The notes below the pieces were generated by a model. That model did no database searches. It saw only the letters and a list, made by a program, of their open reading frames with translations, and had not been told where the DNA came from. The translations under genes were made by a program, and so were the position numbers. This document shows positions 5,711 through 61,495 of a stretch of 64,000 bases of DNA, piece by piece. Source of the DNA: Phycisphaeraceae bacterium (GTDB lineage Bacteria > Planctomycetota > Phycisphaerae > Phycisphaerales > UBA1924); the NCBI GenBank assembly GCA_026128865.1, contig JAHCJE010000004.1:1-64000 (forward strand), written 5' to 3'. The first letter of the stretch is position 1. Every line of letters begins with the position of its first letter.

Positions 5711-6280
5711 GTGAACTGGCTCACCTTCGCCATCGCCGCGTGGTTCGCTCTCGGCCTCGAGCTCGGCCTGCGTCCGGCGCTGCGCCTCGGGCCCGAGGCC
5801 CTTGCGCCGAGTTTCGTGCTTCCGCTCGCCGTCTTTGTGTGCCTCTGGGCACCGCACCGCGTCGCGCTCTGGGCGTGTCTCGCCTGCGGCCTGCTGGTCG
5901 ATCTCACCTGGCGACACCCGATCTCGGGGGGCGGCGCGGCCACGATCCTCGGGCCGTACGCCCTGGGCTACCTCCTCGGCGGCCAACTCGTCCTCACCCT
6001 TCGCGGCGTGCTCATCCGCGGCAACCCGCTGACGATGGCGGTCATGTCGATGCTCGCCGCGGCTGTTGCGCACGTCGTCGTGGTCGCCGCCATGACGGTG
6101 CGCACGCTCTACGGCGATCCGATCGATTTCGCCCCCGCCTCGGAACTGCTCGTCCGGCTCGGGGCGTCCGCGTACACGGGCGTGGCGGGGCTGGCCCTCT
6201 CCCTGCTGCTCATCCCGCTGACGCCAGCCTTCGGTTTCCAACAGCAGGCGACGCACCGGAAGATCGCCCGGCGTGCCTAG
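5711..6280 (+). CDS. mreD: Rod shape-determining protein MreD
   Basis: A 189-residue protein that is hydrophobic through most of its length, with about five to six predicted membrane helices. This matches the MreD family in size and topology. The sequence CGLLVDLTWRHPISGG resembles the conserved G-x-x-x-D region of MreD. It starts with GTG at 5711 just after mreC and should be translated with it. MreD is an integral membrane partner of MreC in the elongation complex. The assignment relies on position and hydropathy as much as on motifs. Confidence 0.88.
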   Translation: MNWLTFAIAAWFALGLELGLRPALRLGPEALAPSFVLPLAVFVCLWAPHRVALWACLACGLLVDLTWRHPISGGGAATILGPYALGYLLGGQLVLTLRGVLIRGNPLTMAVMSMLAAAVAHVVVVAAMTVRTLYGDPIDFAPASELLVRLGASAYTGVAGLALSLLLIPLTPAFGFQQQATHRKIARRA

Positions 6281-6314
6281 CGACCCGACCCCGCGTGTTC
6301 GGTACACTCGCCTC

Positions 6315-7529
6315 ATGCTTTCTGCCGTTTTCTTCGACGACTCCCGCGCGCGGCTCGAACCCCTCACGGGTCTACGCCCTGTCTTCGACGTGCGTCTCGG
6401 CCCGCTCAGCACACTGCACCGTGTCTCGGCTGCGCTGAACCTGCGCGTCGTCGCTCTCTTCGTGCCGCCGGAACTCGAAGCCATCACCGGCGAACGCCAC
6501 GACCTGCCCATCAACCGCCTGCCCGATCGAGCCGGCGGCCCGCTCCTGCTCGTCAACGGCCGGTGCCCCATGCCTCCGGAGCAACTGGCGTCGTTGCGCG
6601 AGGGGCAGGCGCTGGTCGAGGCCGCGAGCGGGGATACGGTGGCTGCGCTGCTCGCGCCGGACGCGGCCCGCGCCCTGCTCGATGGCGAAGGCGCGGGCGG
6701 GGAGCGCGTCGAACTGGAGGAGTCGGTGCTGCTCAGCCGACCGTGGCACTTCCGGGCGGTGCGCGACCAGGCCGTGGAGTTTGATCTGGACCTGCTCGCC
6801 CGCGAGGCGCGCCGGCGCGAGGTGCCCGCGGGCGTGACGGTGCTGGGCGATCCCTCGCTCGTGCAGATCGACCCGGACGCGGAGGTTCTGCCCGGGGCGG
6901 TGCTGGATGCCGAGGGCGGACGGATCACCATCGGCGCTGGGGCGATCGTGCGGCCCGGCGCGGTGATCGTCGGCCCGTGCTACGTCGGTCCCGAGTCGCG
7001 CGTCGTCGAGCACGCGGTGCTGCGGGCGCACACGTGCGTCGGGCGTTGCTGCCGCGTCGGCGGCGAGGTCGCGGGGGTCGTCTTCCAGGGCTACGCCAAC
7101 AAGGTGCACGAGGGCTTCCTGGGCGATTCGTGGGTCGGCGAGTGGGTGAACCTCGGCGCTGGCACCACGAACTCGAACCTGCTGAACACCTACGCCGAGG
7201 TCATCGCCCGCGCCGACCCCGCCGGCCCGAACGAGCGCACGGGGGAGACCTTCCTCGGCGCGATGATCGGCGACCACGTGAAAACGGCGATCGGGACGCG
7301 CATCATGACCGGCGCGGTCATCCACCTCGGCACGATGTGGGCGGCGAGCAGGCCGGTGACCGGGTGCGTTGGTTCGTTCGCCTGGGCGACGGACGACGGC
7401 GAACGCCTCTACCGCCTGCCGAAGTTCCTCGAGGTCGTGCAGGCCGTCATGGCGAGGCGCAACATCGAGCCGACCGACGCCTACATGGCTCGGTTGCGAT
7501 CTCTGCACGCGGAGGCGAGCGGTGAGTAG
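6315..7529 (+). CDS. GlmU-like sugar nucleotidyltransferase / left-handed beta-helix protein
   Basis: A 404-residue protein. The N-terminus MLSAVFFDDSRARLEPLTG and the following RPVFDVRLGPLS match the GlmU-like family seen in Bacteroidetes and Planctomycetes, whose N-terminal half is a divergent nucleotidyltransferase. The C-terminal half, from about residue 190, carries hexapeptide repeats of a left-handed beta-helix acyltransferase (IGAGAIVRPGAVIVGPCYVG, then WVNLGAGTTNSNL). A GTG at 6273 is also in frame, but homology begins at 6315. There, TACACT at 6303-6308 sits 6 nt before the ATG with no Shine-Dalgarno, which suggests a leaderless transcript. Activity on UDP-sugars is probable and the substrate is not known. 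It lies between mreD and polA. Confidence 0.8.
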   Translation: MLSAVFFDDSRARLEPLTGLRPVFDVRLGPLSTLHRVSAALNLRVVALFVPPELEAITGERHDLPINRLPDRAGGPLLLVNGRCPMPPEQLASLREGQALVEAASGDTVAALLAPDAARALLDGEGAGGERVELEESVLLSRPWHFRAVRDQAVEFDLDLLAREARRREVPAGVTVLGDPSLVQIDPDAEVLPGAVLDAEGGRITIGAGAIVRPGAVIVGPCYVGPESRVVEHAVLRAHTCVGRCCRVGGEVAGVVFQGYANKVHEGFLGDSWVGEWVNLGAGTTNSNLLNTYAEVIARADPAGPNERTGETFLGAMIGDHVKTAIGTRIMTGAVIHLGTMWAASRPVTGCVGSFAWATDDGERLYRLPKFLEVVQAVMARRNIEPTDAYMARLRSLHAEASGE

Positions 7530-7601: not shown

Positions 7602-10505
7602 GTGAAGACGCTGTACGTCATCGACGGATATGCCCAGTTCTTCCGCGCGTACCACGCGATCCGCACGCCCATGAGCAGCCCGGTTACGGGCGAGCCGACC
7701 AACCTCACCTTCGGCTTTGTCGGCATGCTCCTGAAACTGCTGCGAGGCGAGGGCGCGGTCGGGGGCACGCCGGACTACGTCGCCGTCGCGCTGGACGTCT
7801 CCGGCGACCGCGGCACGTTCCGCAGCGGCCTCTACCCCGAGTACAAGGCGACGCGGCCGCCCCCCCCCGAGGACCTGCCCCTGCAGGTCGATCGCTGCCT
7901 GGCCATCCTGCGCGAGATCGGCGTGCCCATCGTCGGCGCGGAAGGGTTCGAGGCCGACGACGTGATCGCCACGATCGTGGACCGCCTGCGGGACGAACGG
8001 CCGGATCTGCGCGTGCGGATCGTCAGCAAGGACAAGGACCTCAAGCAACTGCTCCGCGACAACGTGGTCGAGTTGTACGACGTCCACCACGACGCCGTCA
8101 TCGACGAGGCGAAACTGCGCGAGGAGACCGGTCTGACGCCCGGGCAGGTCGTCGACATGCTCGCGCTCATGGGCGACACCGTCGACAACGTGCCCGGCGT
8201 CGAGGGCGTGGGGCCGAAGACCGCGGCCCAACTCATCGCCGAGTACGGCTCGCTGGACACGCTGCTCGCCCGGGCGGGCGAGGTGAAGGGCAAGCGGGGC
8301 GAGAAACTCCGCGAGGCTGCCCCTCGGCTGGGGCTGTCGAAGCAGTTGGTCACGCTACGCCACGACGCCCCGGCCGCGCTGGACCTCGAAGACGCGGACG
8401 TGCGGCGGCTGCGCCTGGAACGCCTGCTGCCGATCCTCAAGGAACTCGGCTTCAACCGCTATCAGGACGAGGTGCGCGAACTGCTGGCCGGCCCCGGGGC
8501 GCGCAAGCCGGACGAGCCGGGGAAGGGCGCGAAGTCGGGCCTGTTCGCGGACTCGTTCTTCGCGCAGCCGTCGGACGCCCCGACGCGCACCAGGGCCGAG
8601 GGCGACTACCGCTGCGTGCGCACACGCGCGGAACTGGACGCGCTGGTGGAGGAGTTGCGGCGTGCCCCGGCCGTCTCGGTGGACACGGAGACGACGTCCG
8701 TCAGCCCGATGCGCGCTTCGTTGTGCGGGCTGAGTTTCGCTGTCGGGCCGGGCGCGGGGTGGTACGTCCCCGTGCGCTCGCCCGAGCGGGCGACGCACCT
8801 CGACGAGCGGACGGTGCTCGACGCCCTGCGGCCGGTGCTCGAAGACCCCGACAGGCCGAAACTGGGCCACAACCTGAAGTACGACATGCTCGTGCTGCGC
8901 CGCCACGGCGTGGAACTGCGGGGACTTTCTCGCGCGGGTGAGGGCGCGGAGGACTTCCCGTCCTGCGACTCGATGGTCGCGAGTTACCTGATCGACTCGT
9001 CGCGTTCGAGCCACGGGCTGGATGCGCTCGCCCTCGCGCTCCTCGGGCGGTCGAACATCGCGATCAAGGAACTGATCGGCACGGGCAAGGCGCAGCGCAC
9101 GTTCGACACGGTGCCGCTGGAGCAGGCGACGCCGTACGCCGCGGAGGACGCTGACGTCGCGCTGCAACTGGCCCGCTCGATGGCGCCGAAACTGCGGGCG
9201 ATGGGGCTGATGCCGCTCTTCGCGGGCCTGGAGATGCCGCTGGTCGAGGCGCTCGCCGAACTCGAGTGGAACGGCATCCTGGTGGACCCCGACGAACTCG
9301 ACCGCCAGCGCTCGCGGCTGGAATCTCAAATCTCAGATCTGAAATCAAAGATCTCCGACGCCGCCTTCGACGCCCTGGGCCGGACCTTCGACCCCGACTC
9401 CCCGAAGCAACTCGCAGCGGTGCTCTTCAACCGCAAGGATGCCCCCGAGCCGGGCCTCGGCCTGCGCGCGACCAAGCGCGGCAAGACCGGCCCGAGCACC
9501 GACGCGGAAGTGCTCGAGAAACTCGCCGAGGACCCAGGTGTCGAATCGCCCATCCCGCGCCTCGTGCTCGACTACCGCCAACTCACGAAACTCGTCAACA
9601 CGTACCTCGTCAGTCTGCGCGACGAGATCAACCCCGAGACGAAGCGCATCCACGCCAGTTTCAACCAGACCGTCGCGGCCACCGGGCGGCTCAGTTCCAG
9701 CGACCCGAACCTCCAGAACATCCCCATCCGCACCGACATCGGCCGCGAGATCCGCAGGGCGTTCGTCGCGCCGCCCGGCCGTGTGCTCATCACCGCCGAC
9801 TACTCGCAGATCGAACTGCGGCTGCTCGCGCACCTGTCGCGCGACCCCGCCCTCATCGCGGCGTTCCGCGAGGGGCAGGACATCCACGCGGCCGTCGCGG
9901 CGCAGATCCACGGCGTGCCGGTGGAGAAGGTGACGCGCGAGCAGCGCAACGGCGCGAAGATGGTGAACTTCGGCATCGTCTACGGCATCACGCCCTACGG
10001 CCTGGCCCGCCGCCTCGGCGTCTCGAACGCCGAAGCGACCGAGATCATCGACGGCTACAAGCGCCGCTTCGCCGGCATCACGACCTTCCTGCAGGAATGC
10101 GTCGATCAGGCCACGCGACGCGGCTACGTCGAGACCATGATGAAGCGCCGCCGCCCGATCCCGGACATCGAGTCCACCAACCCGCAGCGGCGCGCCCTCG
10201 CCGAGCGCACGGCGATCAACAGCGTGGTGCAGGGGTCCGCCGCCGACCTCATCAAGATCGCCATGGTGGACCTGCACCGGAGACTCAGCCCCCACGCGGC
10301 CCACCACCGCGCGGGCAGGCCGCCCGAGATCGACGGCGTGCTCATGCTCCTCCAGATCCACGACGAACTGGTCTTCGAAGCGCCGGAAGAACGCGCCGAG
10401 GAGGCGCGGCGGCTGATCGTCGACCGCATGGAGCGCGCGATGACGCTCGACGTGCCGCTGGTGGCGGACTCGGCCGTGAGCCGGGACTGGCACGAGGCGA
10501 AGTGA
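7602..10505 (+). CDS. polA: DNA polymerase I
   Basis: A 967-residue three-domain enzyme. The 5'-3' exonuclease occupies about residues 1-290 (VSKDKDLKQLL, MGDTVDNVPGVEGVGPKTA). The 3'-5' proofreading domain looks active: DTETTS, NLKYD and the EDADV aspartate are present. The polymerase domain has motif A (ADYSQIELRLLAHLSRD), motif B (RNGAKMVNFGIVYGITPYG) and motif C (QIHDELVFE). It fills Okazaki gaps and repair patches. The GTG at 7602, giving VKTLYVIDGYAQFFR, is the family start; the open frame further back is not conserved. Oddities are an AT-rich repeat that encodes part of the thumb (see 9322-9354) and a short extra segment before motif C. Confidence 0.96.
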   Translation: MKTLYVIDGYAQFFRAYHAIRTPMSSPVTGEPTNLTFGFVGMLLKLLRGEGAVGGTPDYVAVALDVSGDRGTFRSGLYPEYKATRPPPPEDLPLQVDRCLAILREIGVPIVGAEGFEADDVIATIVDRLRDERPDLRVRIVSKDKDLKQLLRDNVVELYDVHHDAVIDEAKLREETGLTPGQVVDMLALMGDTVDNVPGVEGVGPKTAAQLIAEYGSLDTLLARAGEVKGKRGEKLREAAPRLGLSKQLVTLRHDAPAALDLEDADVRRLRLERLLPILKELGFNRYQDEVRELLAGPGARKPDEPGKGAKSGLFADSFFAQPSDAPTRTRAEGDYRCVRTRAELDALVEELRRAPAVSVDTETTSVSPMRASLCGLSFAVGPGAGWYVPVRSPERATHLDERTVLDALRPVLEDPDRPKLGHNLKYDMLVLRRHGVELRGLSRAGEGAEDFPSCDSMVASYLIDSSRSSHGLDALALALLGRSNIAIKELIGTGKAQRTFDTVPLEQATPYAAEDADVALQLARSMAPKLRAMGLMPLFAGLEMPLVEALAELEWNGILVDPDELDRQRSRLESQISDLKSKISDAAFDALGRTFDPDSPKQLAAVLFNRKDAPEPGLGLRATKRGKTGPSTDAEVLEKLAEDPGVESPIPRLVLDYRQLTKLVNTYLVSLRDEINPETKRIHASFNQTVAATGRLSSSDPNLQNIPIRTDIGREIRRAFVAPPGRVLITADYSQIELRLLAHLSRDPALIAAFREGQDIHAAVAAQIHGVPVEKVTREQRNGAKMVNFGIVYGITPYGLARRLGVSNAEATEIIDGYKRRFAGITTFLQECVDQATRRGYVETMMKRRRPIPDIESTNPQRRALAERTAINSVVQGSAADLIKIAMVDLHRRLSPHAAHHRAGRPPEIDGVLMLLQIHDELVFEAPEERAEEARRLIVDRMERAMTLDVPLVADSAVSRDWHEAK
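9322..9354 (+). repeat. AT-rich repeat segment embedded in polA
   Basis: About 33 bp of roughly one-third GC inside a gene of about 70% GC. It is built from the words AATCTCAAATCTCAGATC and TGAAATCAAAGATC and contains the palindrome CAGATCTG at 9334-9341. In frame it reads SQISDLKSKISD. From memory, similar IS(D/N)L(R/K)S repeats occur in many planctomycete and verrucomicrobial genomes; that is not tested here. Confidence 0.55.
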
Positions 10506-24506: not shown

Positions 24507-25904
24507 ATGCTCGCTCACGCACGCACTCGGTATCGCCGCGCTCGTGCCACATCCGCGCTGCTGTCGCTCAGTGCCGGTCTGGCGCTCGCACCCGCCGCGA
24601 TCGCGGACAACACGGGCGGCTCAGCCGTCGTGATCACGGTCGACAAGAAAGACCAGTTCACCGCGAAGGGCCTGTTCCGCTCCACCGACACCGACGATCC
24701 GAAGGACGGGATCAACAAGGACGGGGGCGGGGGTGTCTCGCTCGCCGTGGTCGGCGTGAACTGGTCGTTCAACATCCATCACGTGGTGCAGGGGTGGGAC
24801 CTGGACAAGGACGGTGATGACACGGAAGCCGACGACGGCGCGGAGGCCGCGCAGATCGGCATTGCGGGCAGGCACCTCGACGGCCCGCACGACGACGACG
24901 TCGATCCGAACACCCTCCCGCTCATCAACTCGACGCTCTCGCGCAACATCAAGTACGGCGTGGCAAAGAAACTGGCCGTCTGGGGCGCCACCGAGCACGA
25001 GACGGCCAAGGGCCCGCACTACGACGGCTACGGCGTCGTGTCGATGGTGACGGCGACGCAGGCCCCTCGGCGCGTGAGCGGCGAGGCCATCGTTCGCGCC
25101 AAGCACTCCGGCCGCGCCGCGGACGCCGAGCCGCCCAGCGGCTGGCTCACGGCGGGCGCGTCATCCGGGGCGGGGACCGTCGTCGAGTTCGACCCGTTCA
25201 CGAACGTGCTGACGGTGTTCGCCCCGCGCTTCGACGTGCTCGACCGCGAAGGCGGGCGCACGCTCGGGGTCGATCCGATGTACGCCGACGACCCGATCCT
25301 GAACGTCCCGATCGAGATCATCCAGATGCAACTGGTCGGACACCAGCCCGAGATCGGCTGGGTGTTCGTGCCGATCCGCCCGTTCTGTCTGCTGGGCGGG
25401 CACGACGGGATGGGCATGGAGGGCGTGCTCGGCCGGCTCGTGATCAGCGATCACCGGGCCGCGGGCGGCACGGCGTACGCGCCGTTCCTGCACCTCTCGG
25501 CGGCCGACGGCGCGCCGGGCGAGCCTGAGTCCTCGCGGTTCATGTCCGACTTCATGGGCGTCAATCTCGCCGGCGAGGGCCTGTCCGAGGAGCAGTGGAT
25601 GGAGACCGTCGGCCCCGGCCTGGCGATCCGACCCGAGGGCGACCTCGTGGCGCAGACGGGCGGGTTCACGGCGCACGCCATGCTCCCCGCGACGCTGCTG
25701 CTGACGGTTGTTCCCGCCGAGCCCGACGACCACGGGTGCTCCGCCGACTTCAACGGCGACACGGTGGTGAACACGCTGGACGTGCTCGCATTCCTCAACG
25801 CCTACACCAGCGGGCACTCGTCCGCCGACTTCAACGGCGACACGGTCATCAACACGCTGGACGTGCTGGCCTTCCTGAACGCCTACACGGCTGGCTGCGA
25901 CTGA
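24507..25904 (+). CDS. Secreted dockerin-tagged protein of unknown function
   Basis: A 465-residue protein. The ATG at 24507 follows GGAGGGAG; the frame is open upstream, but the signal peptide SALLSLSAGLALAPAAIAD begins here. The body (about 40-405) is acidic (for example DLDKDGDDTEADDGAEA) with many Asp/Gly turns, which suggests calcium binding. No catalytic motif or known family is recognised. The C-terminal 55 residues are two dockerin repeats opened by C-S-A-D and closed by A-G-C-D, the same tag as on the upstream subtilase. A structural or substrate role in the same extracellular system is possible by shared tag and position. Confidence 0.85.
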   Translation: MLAHARTRYRRARATSALLSLSAGLALAPAAIADNTGGSAVVITVDKKDQFTAKGLFRSTDTDDPKDGINKDGGGGVSLAVVGVNWSFNIHHVVQGWDLDKDGDDTEADDGAEAAQIGIAGRHLDGPHDDDVDPNTLPLINSTLSRNIKYGVAKKLAVWGATEHETAKGPHYDGYGVVSMVTATQAPRRVSGEAIVRAKHSGRAADAEPPSGWLTAGASSGAGTVVEFDPFTNVLTVFAPRFDVLDREGGRTLGVDPMYADDPILNVPIEIIQMQLVGHQPEIGWVFVPIRPFCLLGGHDGMGMEGVLGRLVISDHRAAGGTAYAPFLHLSAADGAPGEPESSRFMSDFMGVNLAGEGLSEEQWMETVGPGLAIRPEGDLVAQTGGFTAHAMLPATLLLTVVPAEPDDHGCSADFNGDTVVNTLDVLAFLNAYTSGHSSADFNGDTVINTLDVLAFLNAYTAGCD

Positions 25905-41642: not shown

Positions 41643-41755
41643 ATTCAACTCCGGAGGGTGGTGCGGTCGCGCGAGGCCCCGGCAAGCATCGACACGGTGT
41701 CTACCCGCCGTGAGCCGGCGCGGCGGGCACGCCCCGGGATCGTCCGAGAAGCAAG

Positions 41756-41842
41756 CGGTGGGGGCGGGATTCGAACCCGCGAGACCCTGACGGGTCTACC
41801 GGTTTTCAAGACCGGCGCCTTCGACCACTCGGCCACCCCACC
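41756..41842 (-). tRNA. tRNA-Ser (anticodon TGA)
   Basis: Reading the minus strand, the acceptor GGTGGGG pairs with CCCCACC. The anticodon stem is CCGGT/ACCGG with loop CTTGAAA (anticodon TGA). There is a long class II variable arm (TAGACCCGTCAGGGTCT) and a T-arm GCGGG-TTCGAAT-CCCGC. The 3' CCA is not encoded. The length with the discriminator is 87 nt. Confidence 0.95.
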
Positions 41843-41868
41843 GGCAGGGGATCGTAGGGGGTGGCGGG

Positions 41869-41948
41869 AGTCCTGAGTCTTGCGTCCTGAGTCTTGAGTC
41901 CTGAGTCTTGAGTCCTGAGTCTTGAGTCCTGAGTCTTGAGTCTTGAGG
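41869..41948. repeat. 14-bp tandem repeat array
   Basis: Five head-to-tail copies of AGTCCTGAGTCTTG (one with C for A at its first base), then a partial copy AGTCTTGAG. Each unit is two diverged 7-mers. It begins 26 bp past the 5' end of tRNA-Ser. From memory this sequence type (read as DSRLRTQDSGLKTQ) is widespread in planctomycetes and acidobacteria. Confidence 0.9.
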
Positions 41949-61277: not shown

Positions 61278-61380
61278 GGGCGCACCTCGAGCGTCGTTCG
61301 GAGCCGGCCGGGACCGTGCGGGCGCAGGATCGGCCCGTCTGTCTGTCGGGATCGGCCGATCGGGGTTTCGGGCATGATTG

Positions 61381-61495
61381 GAGGGGGTGGGGATGAGAGA
61401 GGAGAGGGGTGGGGATGAGAGAGGAGAGGGGTGGGAAGAGAGAGGAGAGGGGTGGGAAGGGAGAGGAGAGGGGTGGGAAGAGCGAGGAGAGCGGG
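61381..61495. repeat. Polypurine minisatellite
   Basis: Five imperfect copies of a 21-22 bp purine-rich unit; the GGGGT mark ends at 61388, 61410, 61432, 61453 and 61474. The strand is almost free of C over 100 bp. It lies between the DoxX gene and tRNA-Leu. Confidence 0.9.

Follow-up and report, generated by a model that had tools for sequence, protein, structure and literature searches.

A short heptamer repeat in the polA gene of a Phycisphaeraceae bacterium: probable overwriting of native helix codons

How does a short piece of AT-rich repeat DNA come to lie in frame within the gene of a housekeeping polymerase? The question is raised by polA, the gene of DNA polymerase I, in a 64,000-nt stretch of DNA from a Phycisphaeraceae bacterium (positions 1 to 64,000 of contig JAHCJE010000004.1, hereafter the window), where positions 9322–9354 differ sharply in composition from the rest of the gene. 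We put at roughly three in four the probability that a dispersed heptamer, (RATYTSA)n, overwrote native helix codons in the ancestor of the genus and that the segment is what remains of a short copy, now ageing. The window corresponds to contig C185 of a 250-contig, 3.34-Mb assembly that is 89% complete; G, C and L numbers below are our handles for genomes, contigs and loci, and G000 is the window's own genome.

The polA open reading frame occupies 7602–10505 on the forward strand and encodes 967 aa from an inferred GTG at 7602, the frame being open from 7548. Residues 338–966 match the Klenow fragment (1dpi) with an E value of 4.4e-145, and the polymerase motifs, including DYSQIELR, are aligned, which places the protein among family A DNA polymerases; it shares 65–69% identity with the polA products of two named Phycisphaerales genomes (L102, L121) and 62–72% with those of family-level relatives, so that the host probably belongs to Phycisphaerales (Planctomycetota). 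Positions 9322–9354 read AATCTCAAATCTCAGATCTGAAATCAAAGATCT, with a GC content of 10/33 (0.30) compared with 0.696 for polA, so that the initial annotation, which described a segment of about 33 bp with one-third GC in a gene of about 70% GC, came close. In the frame set by the GTG, GAA occupies 9321–9323 and is followed by SQISDLKSKISD at 9324–9359; the codons at 9321–9359 on the forward strand encode ESQISDLKSKISD, include the lowest-GC 36-nt window of polA and show no internal gap against relatives. The segment has a 7-bp period and consists of five forward-strand units of the degenerate consensus RATYTSA, namely AATCTCA at 9322–9328, AATCTCA again at 9329–9335, GATCTGA at 9336–9342 (its TGA being out of frame), AATCAAA at 9343–9349 and GATCTCC at 9350–9356, with 0, 0, 0, 2 and 1 mismatches, respectively, that is, 3 over 35 nt. 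As a degenerate pattern, RATYTSA is its own reverse complement (RATY plus TSA), and the other strand can be read as GAGATYT; the tandem period assigned by TRF at this site is 14. If the RATYTSA array family is defined, as here, by three or more tandem units without a mismatch, the stretch 9322–9342 belongs to it.

It could be asked whether such a match arises by coincidence, in that a handful of point mutations in a native helix with Ile/Leu heptads introduced rare AT-rich codons for Ser, Lys and Gln that happen to mimic a 7-bp period, with no repeat DNA involved. The polA segment is the best 35-nt match to RATYTSA in the window, and beyond 45 nt from it the closest match has 9 mismatches; in 100 block-shuffled windows, the minimum was likewise 9 mismatches and never lower. 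When the peptide of the segment was redrawn synonymously with the codon usage of polA itself, 0 of 20,000 redraws reached the match seen in G000, and the corresponding fractions in two sister species were 0.00015 (G001) and 0.003 (G002). Of the Ser codons of polA, TCA accounts for two in the segment and for 0 of the 44 elsewhere. These results, together with the worn form common to the two further species and the dispersal of the same heptamer in the window's genome and family, count against coincidence, and it is confirmed that the segment is real and beyond chance.

A polA match was obtained in 39 of 41 genomes, 30 loci were returned, and the codon comparison covers the window gene and 20 of its 29 relatives. 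The same-genus species G001 and G002 encode ESQIADLKSKIAD and ESRIADLKSKISD at the helix, without a gap, and over the best 35 nt their helix DNA lies 5 (6 within the helix proper) and 7 mismatches from RATYTSA, respectively. In 18 other genera, the same helix lies 12–19 mismatches away, so that the AT-rich sequence is not common to all relatives. Because both same-genus species carry worn versions and the other genera stand at this distance, the heptamer-like state appears to predate the divergence of the genus; judging from these sequences, it was probably present in the genus ancestor and has since aged at an ordinary rate. An event unique to the window species is ruled out by the worn versions in both sisters, and a recent origin there is not supported.

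The 12 residues of the segment align without a gap to an amphipathic helix of the relatives, which is native, since the helix of other genera has the same hydrophobic (heptad) register. In the alignment with Klenow, the segment falls in the helix immediately before what we take to be the thumb, so that the term thumb helix, applied to it at first, is right only approximately. An AlphaFold2 model built from a two-sequence alignment is poor (mean pLDDT 45.8) and deserves little weight; in it, the segment (model residues 251–263) lies in a predicted helix with a local pLDDT of about 67–69. The protein is about four residues longer than E. coli PolI, and this had been offered as an argument for replacement. 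It is no such evidence: the four residues sit where the segment ends, facing SDAA in Klenow and at FDAL in the relatives, and since ten of the relatives shown in the alignment have them without the repeat, they are no trace of it. Insertion in polA was also considered and is ruled out by the gap-free alignment and by the presence of these four residues in repeat-less relatives.

In all three genomes of the genus that were compared, the lowest-GC 36-nt codon window of polA falls on this helix (0.36, 0.42 and 0.47, with gene means near 0.70). This would suit the idea that rare AT-rich codons or AT-rich DNA are selected here for a task in polA, such as pausing translation ahead of the polymerase domain or providing a protein or DNA site, the repeat being only its source or a look-alike. 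However, the helix is mostly not AT-rich in the 18 other genera without a repeat match, the exceptions being L011 and, nearly, L033, and G000 is more AT-rich at this place than either sister; we consider such selection very unlikely.

The initial annotation also took the segment for a repeat element, and further copies in the genome bear it out; these copies, and the differing sequence in relatives, are the opposite of what it had named as a refutation. A scan of G000 with a 21-bp pattern at up to 3 mismatches returned polA, two sites on C22 and one array on C90 (7 forward and 9 reverse overlapping matches), while the reversed-pattern control gave 0 matches at 0–1 mismatches and 1 per strand at up to 3. 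The two C22 copies, at 8562 and 8688, are exact over three units and lie within a putative coding open reading frame of 218 aa, in which SQISNLKS is read twice; the C90 array is a GC-richer variant at 3 mismatches and mixes GAGACCT, GAGTCTT, GAGTCCT and GAGACTT. Within the window itself, TRF reports an intergenic, GC-richer heptamer array, (GAGTCYT)n, of 11.4 copies at 41868–41947 on the forward strand (pattern GAGWYYT), adjoining a tRNA-Ser(tga) gene at 41755–41842 on the minus strand. Because the C90 array mixes GAGTCYT with GAGACYT, the intergenic array is likely to be kin to the polA heptamer, and the whole may form one repeat family of the type GAGWYYT, of which the polA copy would be the AT-rich form. 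The window also holds two other tandem repeats, at 61380–61491 (21 bp, 5.3 copies, GGAGAGGGGTGGGAAGAGAGA) and at 25740–25888 (81 bp, 1.8 copies).

More widely, RATYTSA arrays at up to 1 mismatch were found in 10 of the 41 genomes, the window's own included, with controls of 0 in all; one genome of the same family has 183/189 matches with a control of 0. Exact arrays occur in 13 of 294 genomes of the phylum. The control was not empty in every genome: G276 has 3/2 control matches beside 8/11 to the RATYTSA pattern. In G144 and G266 (same phylum, family f40), the reversed control (ASTYTAR)x3 itself gave 42–63 matches per strand, apparently owing to another abundant heptamer family. A scan of GTDB contigs for an 18-mer of the window's repeat returned at least 119 stretches, 80 of them with names, and the organisms among the matches listed include Planctomycetota, Verrucomicrobiota, Hydrogenedentota, Bacteroidota, Deltaproteobacteria and others; since these loci were picked by the 18-mer, the likeness of their peptides to that of the window carries no independent weight. 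All 12 host genomes of the listed stretches that were tested contain 2–494 matches per strand, the control being 0 save for one match in G049. As to a possible viral vehicle, 28 stretches from viral contigs contain a 20-mer of the repeat.

In-frame arrays inside housekeeping genes, which the initial annotation had singled out in polA, are real and occur in many genomes. A broader scan gave 59 arrays in 56 distinct open reading frames of at least 250 aa, two of which come from relatives of the window. The Pfam scan covered 39 of the 56 (30 chosen partly for coding-like composition and then 9 more), and 35 of these 39 match known families, i.e., 30 of 30 in the first set and 5 of 9 in the second; L079, L093, L098 and L109 had no Pfam match. 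The families that bear arrays include PolI, UvrA, MutS, adenylosuccinate lyase, four tRNA synthetases and others. The array lies inside the domain envelope in DNA polymerase I (L157, with two arrays), the ValRS anticodon domain (L116), the LeuRS editing domain (L189), MutS domain III (L182), Mur ligase (L124), DNA ligase (L131), aconitase (L210), a histidine-kinase ATPase (L167) and adenylosuccinate lyase (L097), and it lies in linkers or outside domains in, for instance, the acyltransferase L212 and the B12-binding/radical-SAM protein L173. In L173, the in-frame array (6174–6379) is about 70 residues, or ten heptads, long, follows the B12-binding domain and gives weak Pfam matches to eukaryotic coiled-coil families.

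Alleles with and without the array can be compared in polA genes of relatives of an Akkermansiaceae genome, in which 23 of 25 genomes matched, 20 loci were read and 19 were placed in a tree (L234 was left out). At site 1, in the exonuclease domain, near-perfect arrays (0–1 mismatches in 28) are present in L215, L217, L219 and L233, partial ones (3–8) in L221, L222, L230, L223 and L224, and native sequence (10–14) in L216, L218, L220, L225 and L229, five more distant loci being native too (13–15). Fitch parsimony requires 4–6 switches over the 19 sequences, depending on the cut-off, compared with means of 3.7–6.7 for shuffled labels, so that the array state is as patchy on the tree as chance. 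L217 and L218 differ by 8.9% of nucleotides over the gene, and at site 1 about 45 nt cannot be aligned, with a sharp left edge and a net difference of +6 nt; this difference is a block replacement of a tract of about 45 nt. The loop that precedes motif A (site 2) is longer in L215 by 6 residues, which derive from the heptamer. In the same loop, before DYSQIEL, L218 (G053) carries another in-frame repeat, STGVPPVS(E/A)NGRPACS, which also occurs in the UvrA gene L282 of G053; its GC-rich DNA looks self-complementary by eye, and no paper was found for these repeat strings in the searched literature. L221 (G057) has a run in this loop that resembles a further heptamer, CCAATAT, in frame as KSPISNIQYLL.

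Other genes give a varied picture. For planctomycete purB, a match was obtained in 24 of 25 genomes and 20 loci were read; five near-perfect arrays, one partial array and five native alleles of the same clade are of equal length, with 3 switches against 4.6–6.8 for shuffled labels. Among 15 ValRS loci, arrays are found in L284 and L288, in a length-variable loop; these proteins exceed most others by about 14 residues, but L286 matches them in length and has no array. Among 15 UvrA loci, clear arrays are found only in L269, at two length-variable sites. The added residues in ValRS and at site 2 of L215 speak for the idea that the polA segment began as an insertion of the Rickettsia palindromic element (RPE) type that was later trimmed back to native length. 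Neither a longer element nor added residues are present at the polA segment, which is gap-free against its relatives, and this course of events is extremely unlikely.

Overwriting of native codons in the genus ancestor has to be weighed against several observations that tell against it. Arrays are depleted in genes, though present there: the 18-mer falls in open reading frames of at least 250 aa at 53 of 128 sites (52 stretches) among the at least 119 stretches listed, compared with 882 of 1,170 random positions. In L011 (G014, another genus), the lowest-GC window of polA also lies on the helix without any heptamer pattern (14 mismatches). At the helix, the three species diverge to an ordinary degree, with 6, 9 and 6 differences in 39 nt for the three pairs, and 34%, 8% and 34% of the 13-codon windows of polA, respectively, diverge as much or more. 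Where G000 has Ser, both sisters have Ala, so part of the match in G000 may be a later point change; the changes unique to G000 number 4 in the segment, all from GC to AT, against 127 elsewhere in polA, which is no excess that settles anything. Among the three genomes of the genus, no allele without the repeat was found, so replacement within the genus is unseen. In a scan of these genomes (21 nt, up to 3 mismatches), forward and reverse matches numbered 7/9 in G000, 4/2 in G001 and 0/0 in G002, with controls of 0–1; those in G001 represent its polA and only one other site, and even polA of G002 is too worn to appear. Elsewhere, the right edge of the tract swapped between L217 and L218 is less clean than the left, and the native purB alleles of the array clade lie only 6–9 mismatches in 28 from the repeat, so that similarity can be gradual. 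Ongoing perfection of the repeat in G000 was also considered, and 4 unique changes against 127 are insufficient to claim it. The AT-rich helix of L011, the ordinary divergence, the purB continuum and the heptad register that the native helix keeps in other genera are also what favours coincidence; set beside the codon redraws and the gap between 3 and 9 mismatches in the window, they leave it improbable, though deserving of some weight.

Overwriting by the heptamer is the best reading because the segment adds no length, which agrees with the replacement first suggested for it; for this copy, overwriting is the likely origin, and the only direct view of a block replacement comes from other bacteria, namely from polA of the Akkermansiaceae relatives. 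The kinship with the repeat, the frame, the unchanged length, the heptad pattern, the presence in three members of the genus and the swapping of tracts elsewhere are directly supported. In the genus ancestor, about 35–39 nt of polA encoding the native amphipathic helix would have been overwritten with no change in length or frame. It is proposed that short stretches of homology such as CAGATC and GAYCTS, common to the helix codons and the array, would have allowed the array to be placed through template switching or ectopic conversion. Since three 7-bp units make 21 bp, or seven codons, the same heptad is read in every frame: (AATCTCA)n gives NLKSQIS and (GATCTCA)n gives DLRSQIS in any frame, while the opposite strand, in the TGA orientation, meets stops. 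In both peptides, Leu and Ile are spaced by 4 and 3, as in an amphipathic heptad, so that the repeat units supply a ready amphipathic helix. In a survey of 2,340 rotation classes of heptamers, 1,608 are stop-free, and 34 of these encode exactly two hydrophobic residues (I, L, V, M, F) spaced 3/4 and lack Pro, Gly and Cys, the units AATCTCA and GATCTCA being two of the 34. The helix encoded by the array would stand in for the native one, and tolerance of the repeat may well be owed to this heptad coding; purifying selection would then keep the helix pattern, while single changes, mostly from AT to GC, would wear the repeat down.

Rickettsia, with a few other organisms, is the best-known case of repeat DNA carried in frame by housekeeping genes. 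Here, a 7-bp repeat is found in frame in Planctomycetota, Verrucomicrobiota, Bacteroidota and other phyla, within conserved domains of enzymes of replication, repair and translation. A tentative extension, to which we give somewhat less than even odds, is that in some bacteria of several phyla the heptamer serves as a helix cassette that can be exchanged, entering loops of core enzymes or overwriting their helices whatever the frame, and is repeatedly gained, worn and replaced at the same sites in DNA polymerase I, adenylosuccinate lyase, UvrA and ValRS; it would be writable in any frame because the 7-bp period of the DNA matches the seven-codon heptad of the protein. If this is true, repeat DNA is a raw material for protein helices. 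The array sites are places where close species differ and thus offer natural helix-for-helix swaps in otherwise matching enzymes, and the tolerance of such DNA finds a simple and testable explanation in the agreement between a 7-bp DNA period and a 7-residue helix period. Outside subscription papers and supplements, no paper on the RATYTSA heptamer was found by its repeat DNA or peptide strings, which matched only one unrelated plant paper, or by topic words.

Several known systems share features with this repeat. It has been reported that RPEs, with kin in Wolbachia and Methanocaldococcus, place repeat DNA in frame in unrelated housekeeping genes, where the proteins tolerate it (PMC10969869; PMC2996958). 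The polA repeat is likewise in frame in a housekeeping gene; however, RPEs are about 150 bp long and add residues, whereas the polA match is confined to about 35 nt and adds none (arrays in some other genes do), and the heptamer has a 7-bp tandem unit and occurs in several phyla. The palindromic amphipathic repeat coding elements (PARCEL) are described as self-complementary DNA that encodes amphipathic repeats and is patchily distributed in distant microbes, with a unit of 25 residues (75 nt) in membrane or unknown open reading frames (PMC2996958); RATYTSA is also self-complementary, amphipathic in coding and patchy, but its period is 7 bp rather than 75 nt, and it sits in housekeeping enzymes. 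The GGGNATC heptamers of Xanthomonas and Nostoc similarly form dispersed arrays; unlike RATYTSA, they form G-quadruplexes, are under-represented in coding regions and, in the passages cited, are not claimed to encode an amphipathic peptide (PMC4692102). The TAACTGA direct repeats of Beggiatoaceae, Cyanobacteria and Bacteroidetes are patchy over phyla and have stops in all frames of one orientation; within genes, they lie mostly at protein ends, and their peptide LSVISYQ was judged not to be a coiled coil (MacGregor 2015, PMC4679880). RATYTSA is also a 7-bp direct tandem repeat, patchy over phyla and with stops in one orientation, but it differs in its unit, in reading as an amphipathic heptad and in lying often within conserved domains. 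RATYTSA is RPE-like in living inside genes and TAACTGA-like in being a heptamer, and it lacks a defining feature of each.

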